DNA of 64,000 nucleotides, from the NCBI GenBank assembly GCA_015660915.1, contig JACTTZ010000011.1, positions 1 through 64,000 of the forward strand, read 5' to 3'. Every line of letters begins with the position of its first letter. The first letter of the stretch is position 1. This document shows positions 1-9,126 of the stretch, one piece after another. This DNA comes from Methanomicrobia archaeon (lineage in GTDB: Archaea; Halobacteriota; Bog-38; Methanoflorentales; Methanoflorentaceae). Under the pieces are notes generated by a model. It was given only the letters and a program-made list of their open reading frames with translations. It was not told the DNA's origin and made no database searches. The translations under genes and the position numbers were made by a program.

Positions 1-176
1 GTGCTATACATACCCTGCAATGCAAAAGGCAAACCGCACATGGAAAAGAAGCCTTCGTCCTCCTTCTTGAGCAGCGTTATCTCCATCTTCCCGGGATCTT
101 TGCATCCTCTGAGCAAAAGCTCCAAAACATTAATTCCAGCAGCGCCTCCTCCTATAATTACCACTTTCTCTACCAT
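1..176 (-). CDS. FAD-dependent pyridine nucleotide-disulfide oxidoreductase, N-terminal part (cut by window edge)
   Basis: The first 58 residues of a flavoprotein run off the left edge. They begin with a Rossmann FAD-binding motif, VVIIGGGAAG (residues 5-14), and carry SMCGLPF at 45-51. A single cysteine before GLP(F/Y) is the mark of the CoA-disulfide reductase/NADH oxidase branch, where it is the redox-active residue. The ATG at 174-176 has an AGGGAG Shine-Dalgarno site about 8 bases upstream. The family is clear from the two motifs. The substrate cannot be told from this fragment. Confidence 0.8.
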   Translation of the reverse strand, partial: MVEKVVIIGGGAAGINVLELLLRGCKDPGKMEITLLKKEDEGFFSMCGLPFALQGMYS

Positions 177-350
177 GTGCCCAATTCTCCCTATGCTGTT
201 CTGTTTCGTCTTTGCCTATTTATCTCAGCACGTGTGATAATCCTCCTAATTGAAAGTGTCTCTTTCACGAGGGACCGCTTGCTTTTCTTGTAGTCATTGC
301 ACTGATTAATGCACCATTAGAAAACAACGCAGAACGCTCCAAAAAATCTG

Positions 351-379
351 CCAGCGGAGGTCGCCGGTTCGAATCCGGC
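351..379 (+). other. tRNA 3' fragment (T-arm remnant), possible attachment-site scar
   Basis: A perfect T-arm is visible at 363-379: stem GCCGG, loop TTCGAAT, stem CCGGC, preceded by GGAGGTC, which looks like a variable loop. The 8 bases after it (CTGAAAGC) have no pairing partner upstream, and no D-arm or acceptor 5' strand is present. This is therefore only part of a tRNA. Integrating archaeal viruses and plasmids often target tRNA 3' ends and leave such fragments. That origin is an inference, and the parent tRNA is not in the window. Confidence 0.5.
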
Positions 380-457
380 CTGAAAGCGTTTGTCAAAAGC
401 GGCGTAACGCTTAGCCCTGTAACTACTGACTAATCCATCCTCCTGTATGCTAGCGAG

Positions 458-664
458 CTACGCTGAACTTGCCTTGCCAAGCTGCCTGAAAATGTGAACC
501 CAGAGATTGACCGCCATAGGTACCATTGTGATAATGATAACCAAGATGACGAACAGCGGAGTTATTTGTGTTCTTCCGCTCCAGATCACGTAAAACATAA
601 TCGCGTCTGTGACAGAGACGATGATAGCAGCGATGACAAGAGATCTAAAAAAGAGATTGACCAC
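458..664 (-). CDS. Small two-span membrane protein, unknown function
   Basis: A 68-residue protein with two hydrophobic segments (about residues 4-26 and 34-56) joined by a short loop containing SGRTQ. It starts with GTG (662-664); an AGAAGGGG stretch lies about 10 bases upstream. It sits at the outer edge of the accessory region, between a tRNA fragment and a broken regulator. No family was recognised. Size and composition resemble small membrane proteins of archaeal viruses and plasmids, but that is only a resemblance. Confidence 0.5.
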   Translation of the reverse strand: MVNLFFRSLVIAAIIVSVTDAIMFYVIWSGRTQITPLFVILVIIITMVPMAVNLWVHIFRQLGKASSA

Positions 665-704
665 GGTTTTGCCCCTTCTGTTTCAGTGTTGACGGTTTGA
701 TTCC

Positions 705-836
705 TCAGCAATGAGCGACATTTGAGTTGCCTAGGTGTGTATTTCGCCAATACTTTATATACACGTCATAAACGTGTTCAGGCAACGGATGCTTATAAAA
801 TCGCCAGTCTACTCCCGAAACCCCGTGCGTGAGTAT
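705..836 (-). pseudogene. Out-of-frame C-terminal segment of the adjacent regulator gene
   Basis: This open segment has no start of its own. It encodes HPLPEHVYDVYIKYW and overlaps the end of the ribbon-helix-helix gene in a different frame. A second copy of the same peptide, HPLPEHVYDVYMRYW, is encoded at 7336-7458. Conservation at protein level shows that this frame was once translated. The simplest explanation is an indel near position 815-825 that cut the extension off the upstream gene. Confidence 0.6.
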
Positions 837-1050
837 TTATTAGTTCGTCTTTACCCTCTAGCTGTGTTCGCAACCGTATTACTTCGGTATTATCACGGGT
901 ATGAAGCTCGTTAATATAGCTATCTTCGAGATAGGCGGCTAGAGCTTTAATAGTCAGTGCTGAACGGGTTACGTTATCGCGGTTAGCACGTTCAATAACG
1001 GCTTCCAACAGCTCGGCGGGTAGGGTTATAGACATACGAAATAGCGTCAT
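793..1050 (-). CDS. Ribbon-helix-helix (CopG/Arc-type) regulator, probably truncated by frameshift
   Basis: The 85-residue product opens with RMSITLPAELLEAVIERA, the beta strand and first helix of a ribbon-helix-helix DNA-binding fold, followed by TRSALTIKALAAYLEDS (second helix). A helical tail follows (LRTQLEGKDELINTHARG). Translation may start at Met1 or at Met6 (MSITLP); neither has a clear SD site. The last residues look abnormal because the conserved downstream peptide lies in another frame (705-836). Such small regulators usually repress their own mobile-element operon. Near-repeats of CTGTGTGGTAC just upstream could be its operators. Confidence 0.7.
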   Translation of the reverse strand: MTLFRMSITLPAELLEAVIERANRDNVTRSALTIKALAAYLEDSYINELHTRDNTEVIRLRTQLEGKDELINTHARGFGSRLAIL

Positions 1051-1436
1051 ATAATCTGTGTGGTACTATCTCATTTGGTATTACGCTGCCGATATCGTAT
1101 TATCAGCGTAAGCACCACGTTTTAGAGCCAATGCAGGCTCGGTTGAATGGCTATATTATAGGCTGTGTGGTGCGCTATTTTGGCTATTTTAAAAAAAAGT
1201 ACGCACGTAGGATTAACCAAGGCCCGGACCATAATATCATAACCCACCCACCTAAGCGAAAAATAGGCCGTCGCCCGGGCCCGAGTGATAGTGCCGTATA
1301 ATCCTTTAAGTTAACGCTGCAAATGAGGTAATGAGTAGAATATAAAGAATCGAGCAACTAGCAAGCGATGCCGCCCGCGACAATTGATAAAATTACTTAA
1401 CGCATAAGTGATTGGCAATGAGTAGGGGTGTATCGA
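1051..1436. promoter_or_regulatory. Gene-free regulatory stretch upstream of the RHH regulator
   Basis: No convincing gene is present in these 386 bases. CTGTGTGGTAC at 1056-1066 recurs as CTGTGTGGTGC at 1163-1173. The second copy also forms an inverted pair with GCACCAC at 1112-1118. Short repeated and inverted elements upstream of a ribbon-helix-helix gene suggest operator sites; this is an inference. An A-tract at about 1190-1198 may end minus-strand transcripts or simply be low complexity. Confidence 0.35.
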
Positions 1437-1676
1437 ATGGCACTTTACACAGAGGACGAACTTAAAGAATGTGCGAAGAAAGCGTTGCCCACTGACGATT
1501 TTAGCGAGGCCACGTGGGACTACCTCGGCGATGCGCTGTATTACGTTTCAGGTATTATGGATAACGAGGGCAAAGAGCACACGCTGAACGTCCGAAACCG
1601 CGACCGAAGCGGCGACCCTCCTGAGATAACCGACGCTCTTACCGGCCAACGATATTGGCCGGATGTAAAAAAATAA
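1437..1676 (+). CDS. Hypothetical protein, 79 residues
   Basis: The protein begins MALYTEDELKECAKKAL and is acidic and soluble, with no membrane segment or cysteine motif beyond one early Cys. The ATG at 1437 is preferred over the in-frame GTG at 1428 because an AGGGGTG Shine-Dalgarno site (1424-1430) lies 6 bases before it. The C-terminal part (TDALTGQRYWPD) ends in KK. No family was recognised. It lies alone on the plus strand within the mobile-like region. Confidence 0.6.
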   Translation: MALYTEDELKECAKKALPTDDFSEATWDYLGDALYYVSGIMDNEGKEHTLNVRNRDRSGDPPEITDALTGQRYWPDVKK

Positions 1677-1680
1677 GACG

Positions 1681-1902
1681 TTATCTATCGTGAGTTCTGC
1701 CTCGTAAAAACTGGAAGTCGCCGCCGCTAAGTTGCTTGTAACGGCCCTGAGCGTCCTGCCATCGTGAACGTCCTGAGCAGTAATACATATCGTGAGTTAT
1801 TGTGCGTGGCCGTCGGTATAACTCGCAATAATATGGGATCCGGTCATTATCGCCGCGTAGCTCGCACTTGACATAGCGTTCGCAGCGTACGCAATAGGTC
1901 AT
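1681..1902 (-). CDS. Small CxxC protein, family copy 1 (most complete)
   Basis: A 73-residue, basic, cysteine-containing protein. It opens MTYCVRCERYVKCELR and continues with RIPYYCELY, so Cys4, Cys7, Cys13 and Cys26 are placed like a small zinc-binding knuckle. A further YYC lies near residue 42 and the chain ends in an Arg-rich tail. Two more copies of the N-terminal half are encoded at 2026-2400 and 3285-3338. A fragment of the C-terminal half (KQLSGG) recurs near 6890. Metal binding is inferred from cysteine spacing. Function is unknown; a nucleic-acid or regulatory role is possible. Confidence 0.6.
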   Translation of the reverse strand: MTYCVRCERYVKCELRGDNDRIPYYCELYRRPRTITHDMYYCSGRSRWQDAQGRYKQLSGGDFQFLRGRTHDR

Positions 1903-2025
1903 ATATCGATAACGAGACGGTGACGCGCTAAGTAGCTAACCGGCGTGTATAGCGAAAGTAATGGCTGCTAAACGATAACATTTAAGCCGCGCCAGCGCGA
2001 ATTTACTTGCTTAGACTTTTGTCAA

Positions 2026-2400
2026 CTAGACAAGGAGGTGAATATCCATGGTAAGAAGTTGGGAGGATCTTGAAAAGGTAAAGGCTAGCGTTGGTCGATC
2101 GGGTTTGGTAGGAGGCGTTTGTTGGTTTTTCGGTTTCGTATTCGCTGTGCTGGGACTCATCGGTGATGCCGCGAACGTCAAACTCGGCTTAACGCCATGT
2201 TCTTGGTTTCTGCTCGCAATCGTAGTTTCCGTACTTAGCGTATCTGTATACATCGGCTGGGCGGCTGCTTGGTATTTGAGGTCGTCCACATAGCTAAAAG
2301 TGAAAATCTTGAGGCAATGCTCGCAGTAATAAGGCAGCTTATCCTGGTTGTCGCGTAGCTTGCAGCCGTTATAATTCTCACATCTACGGCAGTCCATCAT
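2026..2400 (-). CDS. Small CxxC protein, family copy 2, running into a convergent gene
   Basis: From the ATG at 2400 the frame reads MMDCRRCENYNGCKLR and then DKLPYYCEHC, matching copy 1 (1681-1902) in every cysteine and adding a CEHC pair. After about residue 37 the similarity ends, and the open frame continues antisense through the well-supported plus-strand gene at 2048-2293. That part is low-complexity Thr/Ser/Pro and probably not native. The gene may have lost its own 3' end when the other gene was placed beside it. Boundaries are certain only at the start. Confidence 0.5.
   Translation of the reverse strand: MMDCRRCENYNGCKLRDNQDKLPYYCEHCLKIFTFSYVDDLKYQAAAQPMYTDTLSTETTIASRNQEHGVKPSLTFAASPMSPSTANTKPKNQQTPPTKPDRPTLAFTFSRSSQLLTMDIHLLV
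2048..2293 (+). CDS. Small two-span membrane protein, unknown function
   Basis: An 81-residue protein with a short polar N-terminus (MVRSWEDLEKVKASVG) and two hydrophobic segments (about 21-41 and 53-74). The start is certain: AAGGAGGTG, a near-perfect Shine-Dalgarno site, lies at 2032-2040 just before the ATG. No family was recognised. It is transcribed against the surrounding CxxC/membrane-peptide module, which suggests a separately inserted gene. Confidence 0.7.
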   Translation: MVRSWEDLEKVKASVGRSGLVGGVCWFFGFVFAVLGLIGDAANVKLGLTPCSWFLLAIVVSVLSVSVYIGWAAAWYLRSST

Positions 2401-2489
2401 TAACGAGTAGGTTAACGCGCCCCTATTACATTCGTTTCCTAAGTCCGGATAAAGTAATAGCAGGCGCTTGTATAATCTTGGGCGCTCAA

Positions 2490-2603
2490 TCACCAAAGAA
2501 CATAATAAACACGTAATACGACGATGAGAATGAGGACGCCAATGAAAAGCAAATAAAATGTATATTTGAGCGGATCCTGTTTCATCATCCATATTGGATT
2601 CAT
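2490..2603 (-). CDS. Single-span membrane microprotein, copy 1 (37 residues)
   Basis: The peptide is MNPIWMMKQDPLKYTFY followed by the hydrophobic segment LLFIGVLILIVVLRVYYVLW. A GGGGGG tract 3 bases before the ATG at 2601-2603 acts as a weak SD. Two homologues are encoded at 3651-3776 and 3536-3628, with the same start context, basic N-terminus and, in one, the same Arg-Val-Tyr-x-Val-Leu-Trp end. Conservation at protein level despite diverged DNA shows that it is translated. A CxxC gene follows it on the same strand. Membrane insertion is evident; function is unknown. Confidence 0.65.
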   Translation of the reverse strand: MNPIWMMKQDPLKYTFYLLFIGVLILIVVLRVYYVLW

Positions 2604-2772
2604 ATTCCCCCCACTTAACGGAAATTGGACAGATAGACAAATAAGTAGCCTAAATGAGTTATTTTTTTCACCCTAACCTTTATTACGCGGGTGTAGATAT
2701 TAGTACTTTTAACAGGCACAGCGACATAAGTGCTGTGTCACCATTATACAAACGACAAACGGAGGTGGAAAA

Positions 2773-3081
2773 GTGAAAAAGGCAATCGCCGTGCTAGCAT
2801 TGTTTGTTGTGCTCTCATTGTTTGCTGCGACGAACGTAATAGCACAGTGCTCTGCGTCAACGACAACGGCACCTGCGTGCACGACTAGCGCGCAGTGCAC
2901 GAGCTACACCACTGCAGCCTGCTGCGTTTGTACGTGTCCAACCGCATGTTCCACTCCTGCCTGTTGCCCCGTAGTAAAGAGTGCGGCAACGGCATGCTGT
3001 GTCGTCACAAAGTGCTGTGAACCCGTTTTGTATAAACCGGTACATAAGTTCGAACCTTACAAAATGCCTCAGCTCGGCTAA
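2773..3081 (+). CDS. Secreted cysteine-rich protein (14 Cys)
   Basis: The N-terminus is a classic Sec signal peptide: MKK, a long hydrophobic core (AIAVLALFVVLSLFAA), then a likely cut after NVIA. The mature chain of about 77 residues has 14 cysteines, several as CC pairs, spaced by Thr/Ala/Ser-rich linkers, and ends with a Lys/His/Tyr-containing tail (VLYKPVHKFEPYKMPQLG). The GTG start at 2773 has GGAGGTGG about 6 bases upstream. No known family was recognised. The composition suggests a disulfide-bonded or metal-binding extracellular or virion-surface protein. It lies between two copies of the membrane-microprotein module. Confidence 0.75.
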   Translation: MKKAIAVLALFVVLSLFAATNVIAQCSASTTTAPACTTSAQCTSYTTAACCVCTCPTACSTPACCPVVKSAATACCVVTKCCEPVLYKPVHKFEPYKMPQLG

Positions 3082-3284
3082 TATGTCTAAAGGTTCTATT
3101 AGGTACAGATAGACCCATAGTGAGCATTTAAATCCTTGAGCATAGGCTTTGGCACTCTATTTGACGATTTGACGGTATGTACGGTATTTTTTCCACATTA
3201 GAGGATTTTAGGTATTTACTTTTTTGATTCTTTTTTTACCCCCCCTTTCCTAGCCTTTGAAAATTACTACAGCACTTTACTCAG

Positions 3285-3338
3285 TTAAACACGTAGCTTG
3301 CAGCCGTTATATCTCACGCATCTACGGCAATCCATCAT
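3285..3338 (-). pseudogene. CxxC protein, family copy 3, truncated to 17 residues
   Basis: The sequence encodes MMDCRRCVRYNGCKLRV and then stops. It matches copy 2 for all but two of its first 16 residues, including the three cysteines. The loss of the PYYC half shows that this is a remnant. It lies downstream of two membrane microprotein genes in the same order as the intact module at 2026-2603, so this is a second, decayed copy of that module. Confidence 0.65.
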
Positions 3339-3370
3339 TATGCAAGTAGCTAGTTAGCCCCCTTCATTCA

Positions 3371-3457
3371 TTATCCATGTCCCAGGAAACTAATGATAGC
3401 CAGAATTGCTAATGCTGAGATAACGCTACAAAATAAGGTATGTTTGCGTTTGTGCAT
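3371..3457 (-). CDS. Candidate membrane peptide, 28 residues
   Basis: A short frame reads MHKRKHTLFCSVISALAILA and ends IISFLGHG: a basic N-terminus followed by one hydrophobic span, like its microprotein neighbours. No good SD site is visible and no homologue occurs elsewhere in the window. It could be chance, but the position between two members of the microprotein/CxxC module makes it worth recording. Confidence 0.25.
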   Translation of the reverse strand: MHKRKHTLFCSVISALAILAIISFLGHG

Positions 3458-3535
3458 GTGTGCAAGGGGACAAATAGCTATTACACTAAGCCTTGTTACT
3501 TCAGGTCGTGAACGGAGCCCTATAAGTGCTTGAAA

Positions 3536-3628
3536 TCAAAAAAGAAATAAAAAGAGCAAATATAAAGGGAGATTAAACGGAACACGGTTGGGCATATACC
3601 GTTTCATCATCCTAATTATTTGATTCAT
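3536..3628 (-). CDS. Single-span membrane microprotein, copy 3 (30 residues, short)
   Basis: The frame reads MNQIIRMMKRYMPNR and ends NLPLYLLFLFLF. A GAGGT Shine-Dalgarno site lies about 6 bases before the ATG at 3626-3628. The N-terminal MNxIIRMxKR pattern matches copy 2 and the leader region of copy 1. It lacks the final Arg-Val-Tyr-x-Val-Leu-Trp segment, so it is either a shortened variant or a truncated relic. Confidence 0.5.
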   Translation of the reverse strand: MNQIIRMMKRYMPNRVPFNLPLYLLFLFLF

Positions 3629-3650
3629 CTCTCAACCTCACTTCGTCCAA

Positions 3651-3776
3651 TCACCAAAGAACAAAATACACACGTAAAAAGACGATGAGAACGAGTAAGC
3701 CGATAAAAAGCAATGGTAACGCGTATTTCGATGGTGTTTTGATGTAACGCTTCACCATCCTAATTATTGAATTCAT
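3651..3776 (-). CDS. Single-span membrane microprotein, copy 2 (41 residues)
   Basis: The peptide starts MNSIIRMVKRYIKTPSKY and ends with a hydrophobic stretch LLFIGLLVLIVFLRVYFVLW. The last 20 residues differ from copy 1 (2490-2603) at only four conservative positions. A strongly basic N-terminus followed by one membrane span predicts an N-in topology. It is the upstream member of a second module copy (microprotein, microprotein, CxxC remnant). Function is unknown. Confidence 0.65.
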   Translation of the reverse strand: MNSIIRMVKRYIKTPSKYALPLLFIGLLVLIVFLRVYFVLW

Positions 3777-3900
3777 AATCGCTTACTACGTAGCAAAACA
3801 GAGCTTAAACGTAGTGTTTTGAGTCATTTTTCACTGGCCAGCTGAATTACTAGGGCCTAAAGCTCAGGAAAAGATGTCCGTTTCTTCTACGTTTATTATC

Positions 3901-4281
3901 CTATTTTTCAACCTCTTCGGGCCGCCTTCGCGTGAGCGATTCATACAAATTATCGAGGTATGCCTTTCGTTCTTTGATCGTCGGCTGTAGTTGTTCAATA
4001 AACGCAATCCCACCCAGGCGGGTTATTTCGCGCTCCACTTCCATAGCGTCCTTATCGAGTTGCGCGAGTAAGTTAACGGCGTTATCCCTCAGAGCGACCG
4101 CGTCGTTAAACATCGTTGCCGCGTTTCGTACGACGTCTTCCGCCTCGGTCATAATTAGCGTTTCATAACGGTGCATCCACCAGGCGATATTGTCCTTATA
4201 CCTGGCCTTATCGCTGGCCTCATCCTGGTGTTTAAACACATTCATAATCTTCGCTCCGGCTTTATCCAGATTAATAGCCAT
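3901..4281 (-). CDS. Helical coiled-coil protein, unknown function
   Basis: A 126-residue, strongly helical, charged protein with no cysteine or membrane segment. Heptad-like stretches run from about residue 45 (EAEDVVRNAATMFNDAV) to the end (LYESLTRRRPEEVEK). GAGGG lies about 7 bases before the ATG at 4281, supporting the start. No family was recognised. A structural or chaperone-like role in a mobile element is possible. A perfect 9-bp inverted repeat lies 55 bases upstream. Confidence 0.6.
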   Translation of the reverse strand: MAINLDKAGAKIMNVFKHQDEASDKARYKDNIAWWMHRYETLIMTEAEDVVRNAATMFNDAVALRDNAVNLLAQLDKDAMEVEREITRLGGIAFIEQLQPTIKERKAYLDNLYESLTRRRPEEVEK

Positions 4282-4335
4282 TTTTAGGCCCTCGGTTTTT
4301 CATATAGTCAAAACGGCACGTTTGCATACACGTCG

Positions 4336-4365
4336 CCTTCTTGACGGAAAAATTAATCAAGAAGG
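4336..4365. promoter_or_regulatory. Perfect 9-bp inverted repeat (CCTTCTTGA ... TCAAGAAGG)
   Basis: Two perfect 9-base arms at 4336-4344 and 4357-4365 flank a 12-base AT-rich centre. The element lies upstream of the coiled-coil gene on the minus strand. Arms of this length with an AT-rich spacer are typical of a dimeric repressor operator. A hairpin in RNA is also possible, but no T-tract follows on either strand. Confidence 0.4.
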
Positions 4366-4602
4366 TAAAACGGCGGTGTGATAGCTTAAGTGTTACCTAT
4401 TAGCCGGCAACTCTCAATAACGTGTGAGTTTTAGCTCGCTTCTCGAAAACGCCAGTTTAAGCTTATCTAGTCGGTCTACTGTGTTATCTGGTACTGGGGG
4501 TAGTTCGCTCGCGCTTGCGCTAGAATTAGATTGCTTTATGGAATTGAAAAAAAAGAGTCGCTTATCGCCGCTGAATCGCCTAAATAAGCCCTGCCGAGGC
4601 TC

Positions 4603-4631
4603 CGACTCGGGTTCAAATCCCGACTCGGGCG
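4603..4631 (+). other. tRNA-Asp-like 3' end fragment (putative att site)
   Basis: The segment contains the T-arm TCGGG-TTCAAAT-CCCGA, the acceptor 3' strand CTCGGGC and discriminator G. This is the layout of archaeal tRNA-Asp, whose 5' strand would be GCCCGAG. That strand, the D-arm and the anticodon arm are absent upstream, so only the last ~30 bases exist. This is the usual extent of an att core left by integration into a tRNA 3' end. No integrase gene is in the window. The bases around it (4366-4700) contain no convincing gene. Confidence 0.55.
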
Positions 4632-4700
4632 CTCCTTTATTTGATAAGCGGAGGCTATAATGGGGTTGCTTTATGTAGCTCGTATTCGGATACAGGGTGC

Positions 4701-4940
4701 TTAGACAAGGACTGAAAGGCCACAGACTGCAGAGCTAAGCCGGTTGCTTATCGTTACGAGGTTGTTCGTGGCGTTACCGAAAAGGTTTGGGAGCACCGGT
4801 AAGCGGATATTGACGTATGACGCATTTTGGGTCGCGTTTTGCGTCCCATTTTGCCCCCCCGCCTGATACGTGCAGCCGGAAGCAGCGACAACGAGAGCGG
4901 CTATCACGCCAATGAGAATGACTAGCATTATACGTTTCAC
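4701..4940 (-). CDS. Small predicted lipoprotein
   Basis: From the GTG at 4938-4940 the chain reads VKRIMLVILIGVIAALVVAA followed by SGC, a lipobox-type signal sequence. A Gly/Gln/Asn/Thr-rich linker (NGTQNATQNAS) with N-glycosylation sequons follows. The start is chosen because AGGAGGAG lies about 11 bases upstream. The mature part is only about 55 residues. Similar lipid-anchored proteins occur at 9127, 54973, 59539 and 62379. Binding partner and function are unknown. Confidence 0.6.
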   Translation of the reverse strand: MKRIMLVILIGVIAALVVAASGCTYQAGGQNGTQNATQNASYVNIRLPVLPNLFGNATNNLVTISNRLSSAVCGLSVLV

Positions 4941-5034
4941 GTTCTGTTGTGCTCCTCCTACGTTTTTCAATTTTACCACACTTTCACTCTACTTTTAGCT
5001 AACAATTACCCAGGTAGACCTACCATTTTGCCCC

Positions 5035-5307
5035 GTGAACAACGATTGCGTAGAGGTTGATGAACTCATCTTTGAAATCGCAGACTACAAAAATGACTAT
5101 GCCGATATGGCTGCCGAAAAATTTTTAGGAAGTACTCGACCAGTTGGGAAAGTTATCAATACCTGCGAGACCCTGTGGACGATAGCTGGCTACTTAACAG
5201 TGCACGTCAGCAGTTGCGACGAATTATCAAAAGGATATAGGCGCACACGCATCAGTGTCGAGAATATGGCTATTCGTATTTTCCTGTGTCTTTTTACCGC
5301 AGCCTGA
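5035..5307 (+). CDS. Hypothetical protein (weak)
   Basis: An open frame of 90 codons with a GTG start encodes an acidic N-terminal half (EVDELIFEIADYKNDYADMA) and a more basic end. There is no SD site and no recognisable family. Composition is protein-like, and the gap between the flanking minus-strand genes would otherwise be empty, but it may be a chance frame or a gene relic. Confidence 0.25.
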   Translation: MNNDCVEVDELIFEIADYKNDYADMAAEKFLGSTRPVGKVINTCETLWTIAGYLTVHVSSCDELSKGYRRTRISVENMAIRIFLCLFTAA

Positions 5308-5310
5308 CAT

Positions 5311-5526
5311 TCAGTCATTTTTTACCTCAACTTTGAGCGTAACAAGCTTTTCATACTTCTGCTTATAAGCGAGGTATGGTAGAATATGCGATAGTACTTG
5401 CTCTGCGGTGCACGTGCGCTCAATGCCTTTCGAGCTTGTCTGAACCCACCCGCTTTTCTCTTTTCTAAAGCTCTGCACACTGCCATTCTTCGTTGTAAAA
5501 TAAATTACGCACTCGCTGTTCTTCAT
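5311..5526 (-). CDS. Hypothetical protein, 71 residues
   Basis: A small soluble protein starting MKNSECVIYFTTKNG with alternating beta-like segments (GSVQSFRKEKSGWVQTS) and a Lys/Glu-rich C-terminus. GAGG lies about 9 bases upstream of the ATG at 5526. The pattern suggests a compact beta-rich domain, but no family was recognised. Confidence 0.5.
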   Translation of the reverse strand: MKNSECVIYFTTKNGSVQSFRKEKSGWVQTSSKGIERTCTAEQVLSHILPYLAYKQKYEKLVTLKVEVKND

Positions 5527-5664
5527 TTGCTAATCCTCGGCCCCAAACAGCTTATTTACCTTTTCGCATCCATCATTGTTAGGAGGGTTATAGAAACACA
5601 GCTTTTCTGGGACTCCTTTAGAGTAATTCACGCATCCCCAGCATTGACTAAACAGCCGCGCACC

Positions 5665-5844
5665 ATGTTTATCTCTATGGGCTTGCATAACTCAGTTGCT
5701 CTTTCCAAAGGGATTGAAATTTCTGATGGCATAATCCATAACTATTCTTGTTTTGTCAATTTAGTTTTTTTCTACTATGACGCCTATATGGAACATTGGA
5801 AAGACATAGAATGCGTGGTTCTCAAGAAATATGAGGGGAGGTAA
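5665..5844 (+). CDS. Hypothetical fragment upstream of the MuF-like gene
   Basis: From the ATG at 5665 the frame reads MFISMGLHNSVALSKG and ends in ECVVLKKYEGR. Its stop lies 6 bases before the start of the next gene, and its last codons contain that gene's SD site (GGGGAGGT). This spacing looks operon-like. The frame stays open upstream without an obvious start, so it may be the 3' remnant of a larger virion gene. Confidence 0.3.
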   Translation: MFISMGLHNSVALSKGIEISDGIIHNYSCFVNLVFFYYDAYMEHWKDIECVVLKKYEGR

Positions 5845-5850
5845 CAAAGC

Positions 5851-6669
5851 TTGATAACCAAAAGAGACGATAGGCGATACAGATTTGCCCTTGTCATGGA
5901 CTCGCATAGGACTCTGTGGGCTCGGAAAGCGTTTAAGCAAGTGGCGAAAGCGCATACATTCGATCGTAAGCATGTGACTCAAATCATGCGGGCAACCGGC
6001 TCTCCCGAAACGGCATTAGAACACATCAAAACATACTTTGATGGCCAATCTCGCATCTATTTGACAAACGCACTCAGAATCGTATGGAAAGAGACGGGAA
6101 AAGCGGCTATCGAGGTCACGCACGACGTCCTCACCGGGGGGGATTTTCTAAGGGATTATTCCGCGATCACAAAACAAGATCCGGCTGTCGAGAGAGTTCA
6201 AGCGGCATGGGACCTATTCGTCGAGAACAAGATCACGTCGAGGGCGAACAAGGTCGTCGGGGTAACCGATACGGCTTATGCACAAATCCAAGATGTCATG
6301 GCCCAAGGCGTCAAGGATGGATCGACTCACTACGAGATCGGACTGCAAATTGAGTCTATTATGGGTGAGACGTGGAAGGCCCGAGGGGAGACAATCTCAC
6401 ACACAGAGGTCAACTCTGCAATGAACGCGGCTATGCTGGAGGATGCGAGAGCAATGGCTTCAGATCTAAATAAGGTTTGGGCGTGTACGTTCTTGAACAG
6501 CCGTCAAGATCACATAGACGCCGACGGTCAGTCAGTCCCTCAGTCAGAGCCGTTTATGGTCGGCGGGGAGGAAATGATGGAACCCGGAGACGATTCAGCA
6601 AGCGCCGATCAAATAATCAACTGCGCTTGCACGATGTTCTTTGAGCGTCCAGAGGAAGCCTCCGACTAA
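5851..6669 (+). CDS. Mu gpF / SPP1 gp7-like head morphogenesis protein
   Basis: A 272-residue product whose C-terminal ~100 residues match the Phage Mu F (minor head) domain. Features are ETISHTEVNSAMNAAMLEDAR (about 190-209), KVWACTFLNSRQDHIDADGQ (about 214-233), a PF...PGDD segment and a closing NCACTMF (about 256-262). In tailed viruses this protein sits with the portal and helps capsid assembly. The TTG start has GGGGAGGT 9 bases upstream. Neither a portal nor a terminase gene is visible on either side, so this looks like an isolated relic or cargo of a tailed archaeal virus. Confidence 0.8.
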   Translation: MITKRDDRRYRFALVMDSHRTLWARKAFKQVAKAHTFDRKHVTQIMRATGSPETALEHIKTYFDGQSRIYLTNALRIVWKETGKAAIEVTHDVLTGGDFLRDYSAITKQDPAVERVQAAWDLFVENKITSRANKVVGVTDTAYAQIQDVMAQGVKDGSTHYEIGLQIESIMGETWKARGETISHTEVNSAMNAAMLEDARAMASDLNKVWACTFLNSRQDHIDADGQSVPQSEPFMVGGEEMMEPGDDSASADQIINCACTMFFERPEEASD

Positions 6670-6740
6670 GGAGCAAAACCGAGTCGCTCACCTACCGCCT
6701 GCGATTTTGTATTTTTTAGTTCCTATTAGCATCAACAAGT

Positions 6741-6761
6741 CGGAGCCTGTATTAGGCTCCG
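6741..6761 (+). terminator. Hairpin downstream of the MuF-like gene
   Basis: CGGAGCCT and AGGCTCCG form a perfect 8-bp stem around a 5-base loop, 70 bases after the stop codon. Flanking ACAA/TTGT bases can extend the stem. The following bases are G/T-rich rather than a pure T-tract, so this is a structured 3' end or processing site more than a textbook terminator. Confidence 0.4.
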
Positions 6762-6966
6762 GTTGTTGTGTCGAATTCGTCCGTCAAAGCGTTCAGATGT
6801 TACCTAGTTGGTCGTCGCCTCTTTAGGGCTCCGTACGCGGGCGGTTCCCTTAGTGGAAACAATAATCCCATAAATCCGCCGGGCGGAACCGCCGCCGCTA
6901 AGTTGCTTGCAACAGCTGTATGCAATGCTGTCCCCTTCTTCTTCTAAAACTGACTGGTGGAAAAAG

Positions 6967-6974
6967 TATATAAA
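6967..6974 (+). promoter_or_regulatory. Orphan archaeal promoter (TATATAAA)
   Basis: TATATAAA follows GGTGGAAAAAG, a purine-rich stretch of the kind expected for a BRE. Transcription would start near 6998-7000. No plus-strand reading frame with a start and SD site follows for 300 bases, so the transcript, if made, would be non-coding or belong to a decayed gene. Confidence 0.4.
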
Positions 6975-7140
6975 GCCGCTTCTGAGAAATAGGCCGTTCT
7001 AGCAGCATTTTAAGGCCACTGAATCAACAAAAGAGACGTATAAACTGATCCGTTTAGGCCTATTATCTACAAGTTAACGTGCGGGGGTAAAAAACAGCTA
7101 AAAAGGTCGGGGTAATTGGCCCCAGAGTACGTAGAGAATA

Positions 7141-7218
7141 CTACTTTTTCCAGAAACGCCACTTTTGGACTGCGCGTTGCATACGCTGTAACGCCTGTCG
7201 CCGTAAAGTGCAAATCAA
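7141..7218 (-). CDS. Candidate basic peptide, 25 residues
   Basis: A TTG-initiated frame encodes LICTLRRQALQRMQRAVQKW and ends RFWKK: strongly basic, amphipathic and helical. AAGGTGG lies 7 bases before the TTG, which is the only support beyond composition. It may be chance. Confidence 0.25.
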   Translation of the reverse strand: MICTLRRQALQRMQRAVQKWRFWKK

Positions 7219-7335
7219 TTTGGAGCCACCTTAGTAGAAGTAATTGAGTCTAAAGTCCTTTCCGCAGGATCAAAGTTGAGCAACTGCACAAGTACCTCTC
7301 ACTCTGACCGCCTGCATCCTCAAAAGTTGTTGCGC

Positions 7336-7458
7336 TTAAAGTGTGGTGTCTTCCCAGTATCTCATATAGACATCATACACGTGCTCAGGCAGCGGATGTC
7401 GATAGTAAGTCCGTTCAACGCCTGCACGCTGTGAGTAAGGACGTAGGCGCGATTCGAC
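7336..7458 (-). pseudogene. Second copy of the regulator C-terminal segment
   Basis: Between two in-frame stops this segment encodes RLRPYSQRAGVERTYYRHPLPEHVYDVYMRYW and a short end, shown here across its two halves: RLRPYSQRAGVERTYY, then RHPLPEHVYDVYMRYW. It is clearly homologous to the out-of-frame segment at 705-836. No start codon and no DNA-binding part remain. It marks a second lost copy of the ribbon-helix-helix gene at the far end of the accessory region. Confidence 0.55.
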
Positions 7459-7784
7459 TCATTCTATTCGATCACGTCACCCCACAGTTCGGCGTCTGTA
7501 GATTGGACGGGACAAAATTAGTCTTGCACAGCGCTAACGGAATAGTCAGCTTCTGCGACCATTTGCGAATGGTTTCTAAAAAAAGACAAAGTTCATTGTA
7601 CTCTCTGCTGTCACAAATAGTTTCCACGACCCCCGGCGAACCCCGTCTAGAATCACCCTATTTGCTGTGGGCTTGAGCACATTTCGTCCTGTGATTCTAT
7701 GAAACTCTCTTCTTCTCCTGCATTCCGGCTTACTCTGAAAAGCTCGTCCGTTGATCGCACCGAAACCGACAACGTCGAAACAGT

Positions 7785-8696
7785 TCATGGAAACAGCTCA
7801 CGCAGATTAATTTTGAATTCGCCCAGTTTTCCGCCGTAGTTACCCGCAGAAATCCTGACAACACCGTCGATGTCCAAGGTGGCTTCAATTCCTTTTTTCA
7901 TCGCTTCTCTCACTGTGTCAAGCGAGGTTCCGTTAATGACTATTTCGGGGATATATCGAACGCCCTCTGGAACCTTGTGGACATCTTTCAATCTGTGCTT
8001 AAGAGAAGGACAGAAGGGATCGTTTGTGGTTGGACCTATCAGCGGAAAATGGGTTTCTAGCTTTGAGCCTGCGGAACACACATCGAAAGGGGTCACCACA
8101 CCATTTATGCGGTCGATAGCACGTAGGGCCTTCTCTCCGGCTTTTCGTAGAGCTTCTTTTGAGTTACACATGACCCAGAAATTCGCGCCCATCACGCCGT
8201 GAGCGTACCCCAAACATCTTTCAATGATAAAATCTGGGACCATAAGTGGAACAACAACAATGTTTCTGCCAAAGCGTTTTTCCACCCATTCATATCCGTC
8301 CCCGCAATGCCCAACTCGCTCCATCATGTCCATGTGACCTTCTGCGTCCGGCAACGCGTCGAAGACCGCAGTGAAGGGTTTAACAAGTATGTCTTGGCGA
8401 ATCCTATAAGAGAGTTCAGCCTCAAAATCTTTTAAAGAAACAGTTAAGGCTTTCTTCTTGTCCAAACCCCCCCAGAACTGTAGGACAGCGCCCTCGCGCT
8501 TATCTGGTGTCTTGTTTTCGTCAAGCCACTTCTCTACGCCGCCTTCCACTCTGCCAATCACAACTGAAGGTGTTGCCGTAGAATCTTCGGCTGCACTGCG
8601 CAGAGTTGCTTTGTCGTCAGCCGTGATCATCACTCGGCAAAAAATACCGGCAAATGCCTCGGCATAAGTGTCTTCAATCTCAACTTCGAACGCCAT
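7785..8696 (-). CDS. ftr: Formylmethanofuran:tetrahydromethanopterin N-formyltransferase
   Basis: A 303-residue protein matching Ftr in length (family about 297) and in its opening [20 protein letters not shown]. It transfers the formyl group between methanofuran and H4MPT in the cytoplasm, the second step of CO2 reduction to methane or its reverse in methyl/alkane oxidation. Conserved blocks include [20 protein letters not shown] (about 128-147) and the Gly-rich end [26 protein letters not shown] lies 12 bases before the ATG, with an AT-rich promoter stretch beyond. Flanking DNA on both sides is degraded, so this core gene is isolated from other C1 genes. Confidence 0.92.
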
Positions 8697-9126
8697 TTCT
8701 TATCCGAGCCTCCCGATATATTCTCTTTTGACCTTTCTCTGACTTTGCTGATTTCTTTAACTAGAGATCCTTATTATCAGCAGTTACTATTTGAACCTAG
8801 GGTAACCTGTAACGGCAATTAAAAGAGTCGAGAAAGCAGAACGTGACTGATTGCGCTGCGCCCAAGAGAGACCCGACCCTAGTGGAACGCTAACTGCGAG
8901 GCCTGTCAATTTCCACGAGTGCAAAAAACTGCAGCGATTATTGCTGTAACCAAGGCGGTTTCTAGCCTTCTCGTCCCCTTGTTCTACTTCAGGGTTTTTC
9001 TTGGGGACGAATCGAATACTCGAATTAGTTTGCCCTATACCAAAGACCTTCCAGGCTGTTTGAAACGCCGATCGATGAGGGCACAAGCTGCTGAATGTGC
9101 TGTTACAAGTCGCTAGCTTTCGACAG
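8697..9126. other. Gene-free stretch between ftr and the small lipoprotein
   Basis: No reading frame with a start site, recognisable domain, repeat or RNA signature was seen beyond the likely ftr promoter just above 8700. Confidence 0.4.

Follow-up and report, generated by a model that had tools for sequence, protein, structure and literature searches.

The short minus-strand peptide genes at the left end of the analysed DNA (64,000 nucleotides, hereafter the window) are real small genes, but the partnership with CxxC genes that had been proposed for them was wrong; the surprise is that a leader found on unrelated lipoproteins also lives as a separate gene. Taking the evidence as a whole, we consider it probable that a free-standing secretion leader here lies beside an independent CxxC island gene in a worn stack of integrated elements. 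The decoupling of the leader from the mature protein is the most interesting part of this reading.

The window opens a contig of 69.6 kb (G000:C10), one of 27 that make up a draft genome of 2.04 Mb. We compared it with six more genomes of the same genus (seven in total, G000-G006). Among the genomes compared, this single genus represents its class, Bog-38, which the literature groups with mcr-bearing Halobacteriota (PMC10873845). According to the ORF lists, the window beyond about 10 kb is ordinary core genome, with exosome, proteasome, IleRS and thermosome genes. The first 7 kb contain small genes, and long operons are absent from them. An Rfam search of positions 1-9000 gave nothing convincing.

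The first-pass annotation had described three short peptides of the same type in this region. As described, three minus-strand ORFs exist: one of 37 aa (MNPIWMMKQDPLKYTFYLLFIGVLILIVVLRVYYVLW, 2490-2603) with GGGGGG in front, one of 41 aa (MNSIIRMVKRYIKTPSKYALPLLFIGLLVLIVFLRVYFVLW, 3651-3776) without a G-rich ribosome site in front, and one of 30 aa (3536-3628), which reads as a truncated or diverged leader. Their similarity is beyond chance, as a search of the genome itself returned the other two copies at E=1.6e-6 and 0.025. The leader profile found the three at E 1.6e-18, 1.0e-13 and, for the 30-aa ORF, 1.3e-11, values obtained with a profile in which these copies were themselves rows. Pairwise DNA comparison, which is independent of the profile, showed the window copies to be 71-81% identical to lipoprotein leaders. 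For the 30-aa ORF, the DNA match to these leaders was limited to the first 35 bases (83-91%), after which it diverged. In a codon-by-codon alignment, the two long copies were identical at 24 of 37 residues (65%) and at 82 of 111 bases (74%), so the earlier statement that peptide identity far exceeds DNA identity does not hold.

In terms of sequence, these peptides are no unknown kind of protein: their first ~30 residues are a lipoprotein signal peptide of the same genus. When we searched the genus with the 41-aa peptide, the matches were residues 1-32 of ORFs of 173-315 aa in G002, G005 and G006. These ORFs start with MNPIxRMMKRYIKTPLKYALPLLFIGxLVLVSISGC, followed by a serine/threonine-rich linker, and we therefore read their starts as lipoprotein signal peptides. 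A lipobox cysteine ([S/T]-[GA]-C) and a mature domain are present in at least 9 leader relatives. The window copies carry the conserved N-region of the MNPIxRMMKRYIKTPLK type and the hydrophobic core, without the lipobox and the mature domain, and the two long ones end in VLW before the stop. The leader profile (A1) found 20 places in 6 of the 7 genus genomes and had no match among 288 genomes of the phylum outside the genus.

The mature parts behind this leader are of different kinds. One is DUF4352 (Pfam, E 3.5e-15), and the other, starting 'TPLLxKME...' (TPLL family), matched no Pfam family. Between DUF4352 and TPLL proteins the leaders are 78-97% identical, and the mature parts mostly align no better than shuffled sequence does (z 0-1 for most pairs, up to 3.2 for one). 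Even among proteins with homologous mature parts, the leader is often better conserved (94% vs 55%, 88% vs 33% and 88% vs 38%). At the DNA level, G006:C158/C168 and G006:C33 share 83.5% identity over -109 to +114, with nothing in register beyond. Two genes of G002:C73 share -56 to +155 (82%) and the 65 bp directly past the stop (95%), and the proteins between differ; promoter and 3' flank are thus conserved around an exchanged middle.

We further examined 37 lipoproteins, mainly from islands, collected by a rough regular-expression screen. Within this set, median leader identity was 0.24 where the mature parts were homologous, and 20 non-homologous pairs had a leader identity of 0.6 or more. 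Most of these pairs carry the MNPIxRMMKR-type leader, and two further leader types are also among them. Leaders decoupled from mature domains were observed at L094 and L099-L104 (G002, G005 and G006), with at least three leader types on unrelated domains. Broken leader copies also occur: one in G003:C48 at codon 13, and one in G005:C1 at codon 19 that runs into another frame. The piece joined to the leader in G005:C1 resembled an amidohydrolase end, but gave no Pfam hit and was left unnamed. At L093:6859 and L106:1653, leader and promoter are joined to unrelated frames at codon 19 or 13, as if the cassette were broken there or used as a start elsewhere.

The free form of the leader is represented by four copies in two species: the two long window copies, G002:C175, and G002:C58, which is interrupted by an assembly gap. 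All lack the lipobox and have a fixed tail, IV[FV]LR[VA][YN][FY]VLW followed by the stop. The 37-aa ORF (2603-2490) could be aligned to G002:C175 only over -4 to +117, with 82.6% DNA identity, and the tail of the 41-aa ORF matched the same gene at 91%, the match ending 4 nt past the stop. In fixed register, DNA identity among free forms was 0.79-0.85 within the ORF compared with 0.22-0.38 on either side, falling to chance at -4 and +3. Length differences were whole codons. The dN/dS ratio was 0.30 for 2603-2490 against G002:C175, 0.37 between the two window copies and 0.40 for the other window copy against G002:C175, in line with the earlier suggestion that these tiny genes were under selection. 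When an equal number of changes was placed at random, as few amino-acid changes arose in 7%, 0.4% and 0.2% of trials for the three pairs (P 0.07, 0.004 and 0.002); the test is weak in one pair because the free form is short and has only four copies, one of them broken by the assembly gap. The confinement of identity to the ORF, the low dN/dS and the whole-codon lengths together form the pattern of a translated gene, not of a fossil. Judged by these features, the long window copies look like real single-span peptides. The copies in the window may nevertheless be dead by now, as they lie in decayed DNA and one is without a ribosome site.

Three stretches of the CxxC family lie on the minus strand of the window. 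The best preserved copy (1681-1902, profile E 3.2e-19) was absent from the first-pass annotation; it passes the usual stop to reach 73 aa and shares 82% DNA identity over 206 bp with G000:C9, about 60 bp of upstream sequence included. The copy at 2287-2400 (E 7.9e-17) has kept its four cysteines, and its C-terminal part has been replaced by one that matches no relative, the frame being free of stops down to 2026. The copy at 3276-3338 is a remnant with an in-frame TAA after 17 codons. Its conserved 5' flank (3339-3459, minus strand; 86.6% over 149 bp) recurs with the first 8 codons as an orphan copy at G000:C25:3786-3932. A search of the genome itself returned the other two CxxC copies at E 2e-5 to 7e-5.

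The CxxC profile (A2) found 8, 6, 3, 8, 0, 8 and 13 copies in the seven genus genomes (6 of 7 with at least one) and no match in the 288 other genomes of the phylum. In all, 30 distinct copies were collected. In the family alignment, C4, C7 and C13 are invariant and C26 is present in at least 90% of the rows, with a spacing of C-x2-C-x5-C and the fourth cysteine 11-12 residues later. Most copies have 36-47 aa and a basic tail. For pairs whose dS was under 1.2, dN/dS across the first 22 codons had a median of 0.39. Conservation also extends over some 40-100 bp of DNA upstream of the gene. Zinc binding is a possible role assumed from the cysteines, with an iron-sulphur site as the alternative. 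The AlphaFold model of the CxxC protein was uninformative (pLDDT 55). For both the microprotein and the CxxC protein, no family in Pfam, PHROGs or PADLOC scored above cut-off, as expected from the earlier remark that they belong to no nameable family, and a sequence search of the PDB returned nothing. At G000:C19 the CxxC ORF overlaps an integrase gene. We considered that it might be mere antisense of that gene and dropped the idea, since on inspection most other copies overlap no integrase.

The regular neighbor of the CxxC gene is a helical protein of about 90 aa (MIENGLVLTGSDAELLSRALSEVKTK...), encoded in the same orientation, usually at a distance of 100-420 bp downstream. It occurs in 14 CxxC loci, compared with 0 of 24 control stretches of genome; the pairs include L109:2800-2943 and 2427-2696, L110:4754-5263, L107:16530-17083 and those at 11 other loci. 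This protein is genus-specific (7/7 genus genomes, 0/190 others), and it was not found in the window. Its AlphaFold model was likewise uninformative (pLDDT 48). The CxxC gene and the gene for the ~90-aa protein are a true conserved small-gene pair of the islands.

The order microprotein then CxxC does occur twice on one strand of the window, with a CxxC ORF after the first microprotein gene and the CxxC remnant after the other two. Of 16 leader loci outside the window, 4 had a CxxC gene within 6 kb, where 0.5 would be expected by chance (Poisson P 0.002). However, orientation and distance vary among the leader loci near CxxC genes, and fixed-order pairing, the sign of co-occurrence that was looked for, was not found there. 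The contig of G002:C175, the nearest relative of the window microprotein gene, carries no CxxC gene over its 18 kb. We therefore explain the proximity by a shared habitat rather than by a module. The majority of CxxC copies have no leader in their vicinity, and many are accompanied by the 90-aa partner instead.

That habitat has a virus-like character. Integrase fragments were present in 16 of 41 island loci compared with 2 of 24 controls. On G000:C25, a terminase small subunit gene (E 4.5e-29) lies 1.6 kb from a CxxC gene, and a leader lipoprotein gene on G006:C70 adjoins a terminase small subunit homologue and a PD-(D/E)XK nuclease. No complete head-tailed provirus was seen around the loci with integrase, terminase or Mu-F genes. 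IMG/VR scans with the leader, the CxxC subgroups and the 90-aa protein gave no relative, and a scan of a phage collection gave chance-level matches only. Both families are thus tied to virus-like integrated islands, and for carriage by an actual virus the evidence is indirect. The earlier suggestion of an undescribed virus or plasmid system stands as far as the virus-like, integrase-rich islands go, and fails in its pairing of microprotein with CxxC protein.

Remnants of such elements mark the left end of the window itself. We found an orphan 27-bp 3' end of tRNA-Val(CAC) at 354-380 and an orphan 3' end of tRNA-Asp(GTC) at 4604-4630 (both plus strand). The intact genes lie elsewhere, and both ends are likely attachment-site footprints. 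Orphan tRNA-Val(CAC) ends also occur at G000:C10:68214 and C11:166970, so G000:C10 bears one near each contig end in opposite orientations; their number suggests repeated integration at tRNA-Val(CAC). A fragment of the genus' own tyrosine integrase lies at 741-839 (minus strand; its family matches the phrog_216 integrase, E 1.4e-4), and a second integrase scrap at 7348. A Mu-F-like head morphogenesis gene at 5851-6669 (plus strand; PF04233, E 1.7e-9; phrog_2468, E 1.1e-32) is a provirus remnant, and an IMG/VR scan with its protein gave no relative. Two further genes were observed on the plus strand. The one at 2773-3081 encodes a secreted protein of 102 aa, in which a signal peptide precedes a mature part very rich in cysteine; it has relatives in 4 of the 7 genus genomes and no Pfam match. 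The one at 5035-5307 belongs to another genus-specific small gene family (NNDCVEVDELIFEIADYKNDYADMAAEK) that recurs in the same islands (L102, L105 and L125).

From these observations we propose the following model. The left end of the window would be a worn stack of virus-like elements integrated at tRNA ends, in which two apparently unrelated small genus-restricted families, the leader microprotein and the CxxC protein, came to lie side by side. The microprotein would be the free form of a secretion leader, with a basic N-region of 18-20 residues and then one membrane span (read by eye). In the same genus, this leader also stands at the front of unrelated surface lipoproteins, where it carries a lipobox; the free form has no lipobox and continues into a short, fixed hydrophobic tail. 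By sequence rules, the free peptide should insert in the cell membrane N-in/C-out and, since it has no lipobox, stay there as an uncleaved single-span peptide; from this location it would probably serve its carrier element. The CxxC protein would most likely be a zinc-knuckle regulator binding nucleic acid or protein, its gene apparently riding integrase-bearing islands and normally followed by that of the ~90-aa helical protein. Kinship of the leader with lipoprotein signal peptides, conservation confined to the ORF, the signals of selection, the spread of the two families, the island setting and the pairing of CxxC and 90-aa genes are observed, and membrane insertion, zinc binding, the regulatory role and the benefit to the element are inferences.

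Several other explanations were weighed against this model. The microprotein ORFs could be functionless fossils, that is, lipoprotein genes that lost the mature part and were spread by duplication. Leaders are indeed often copied and broken in this genus, and the window copies lie amid decayed genes next to a CxxC remnant with a stop. Nevertheless, a fossil would hardly have one tail and stop common to four copies in two species, an identity of about 0.8 that gives way to chance level precisely at the start and stop codons, dN/dS of 0.30-0.40 and length changes in whole codons, and we regard this explanation as unlikely, though the one among the alternatives that deserves the most weight. A more far-reaching idea, which we hold to be improbable, casts the leader as a tag for export or sorting that is specific to the genus and whose conserved basic N-region would be read by a dedicated partner. 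Cells and their integrated elements would recombine the leader, together with its promoter and RBS, onto lipoproteins that are unrelated; kept as a free membrane peptide as well, it would compete for that partner or regulate it.

A role of the free peptide as a small hydrophobic toxin or an exclusion peptide, serving the element, is slightly less probable still. Its size of 37-41 aa, a span reaching the C-terminus, its multiple copies in integrated elements and the lack of a fusion partner would suit this role, but its N-region is common to ordinary secreted proteins, which is unlike toxins of the type I kind. The paired microprotein/CxxC module of a virus or plasmid, for exclusion, lysis or anti-host action, we consider very improbable: the repeated order in the window and the excess of nearby CxxC genes speak for it, but the variable arrangement, the CxxC copies that lack a leader and have the 90-aa partner, and the solitary microprotein gene of G002:C175 speak against it. 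We therefore retain the free-standing leader beside an independent CxxC island gene.

Signal peptides usually change more quickly in evolution than their cargo proteins. In this uncultured peat-bog class, the leader outlasts the mature domains even of true homologues, and the main importance of the result lies in a rare archaeal case of a single export signal common to unrelated proteins. If general, this would mean that leader shuffling generates surface diversity in archaea. It is also a warning that micro-ORFs of this kind may be leader relatives. The CxxC family and its 90-aa partner provide a usable marker of the mobile islands of the genus.

Among known systems, archaeal lipoprotein signal peptides of the Sec, lipobox type have the same basic N-region and single hydrophobic core, and the leader relatives also share their lipobox and S/T-rich linker. 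Unlike them, the genus leader has a long N-region (18-20 residues) that is strongly conserved over unrelated proteins, and its free window form has neither lipobox nor mature protein. In conotoxin precursors and phytoplasma SVM proteins, one conserved signal is placed on variable secreted proteins. From general knowledge we liken the genus leader to them, as one leader (78-97%) stands over unrelated mature parts in mobile or repeat-rich regions; unlike theirs, it is archaeal, of the lipoprotein type, and also a stand-alone peptide. SVM/PMU gene clusters have been described (PMC3743221). The free peptide resembles type I toxins in being short with one membrane span. For the CxxC protein, the nearest described kind, judging by sequence, is the small zinc-finger proteins of haloarchaea and haloviruses: the C(P)XCG zinc-finger micro-proteins of Haloferax (PMC6562870, PMC11241148), Brz (PMC2253796) and the CxxC proteins of HF1-like viruses (PMC7230728), some of which have regulatory roles and some of which lie in virus genomes. 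Like them, the CxxC protein is under 70 aa, cysteine-rich and multi-copy; unlike them, it carries one CxxC and two single cysteines where they carry a pair of C(P)XCG motifs, has no Pfam family and is restricted to one genus.
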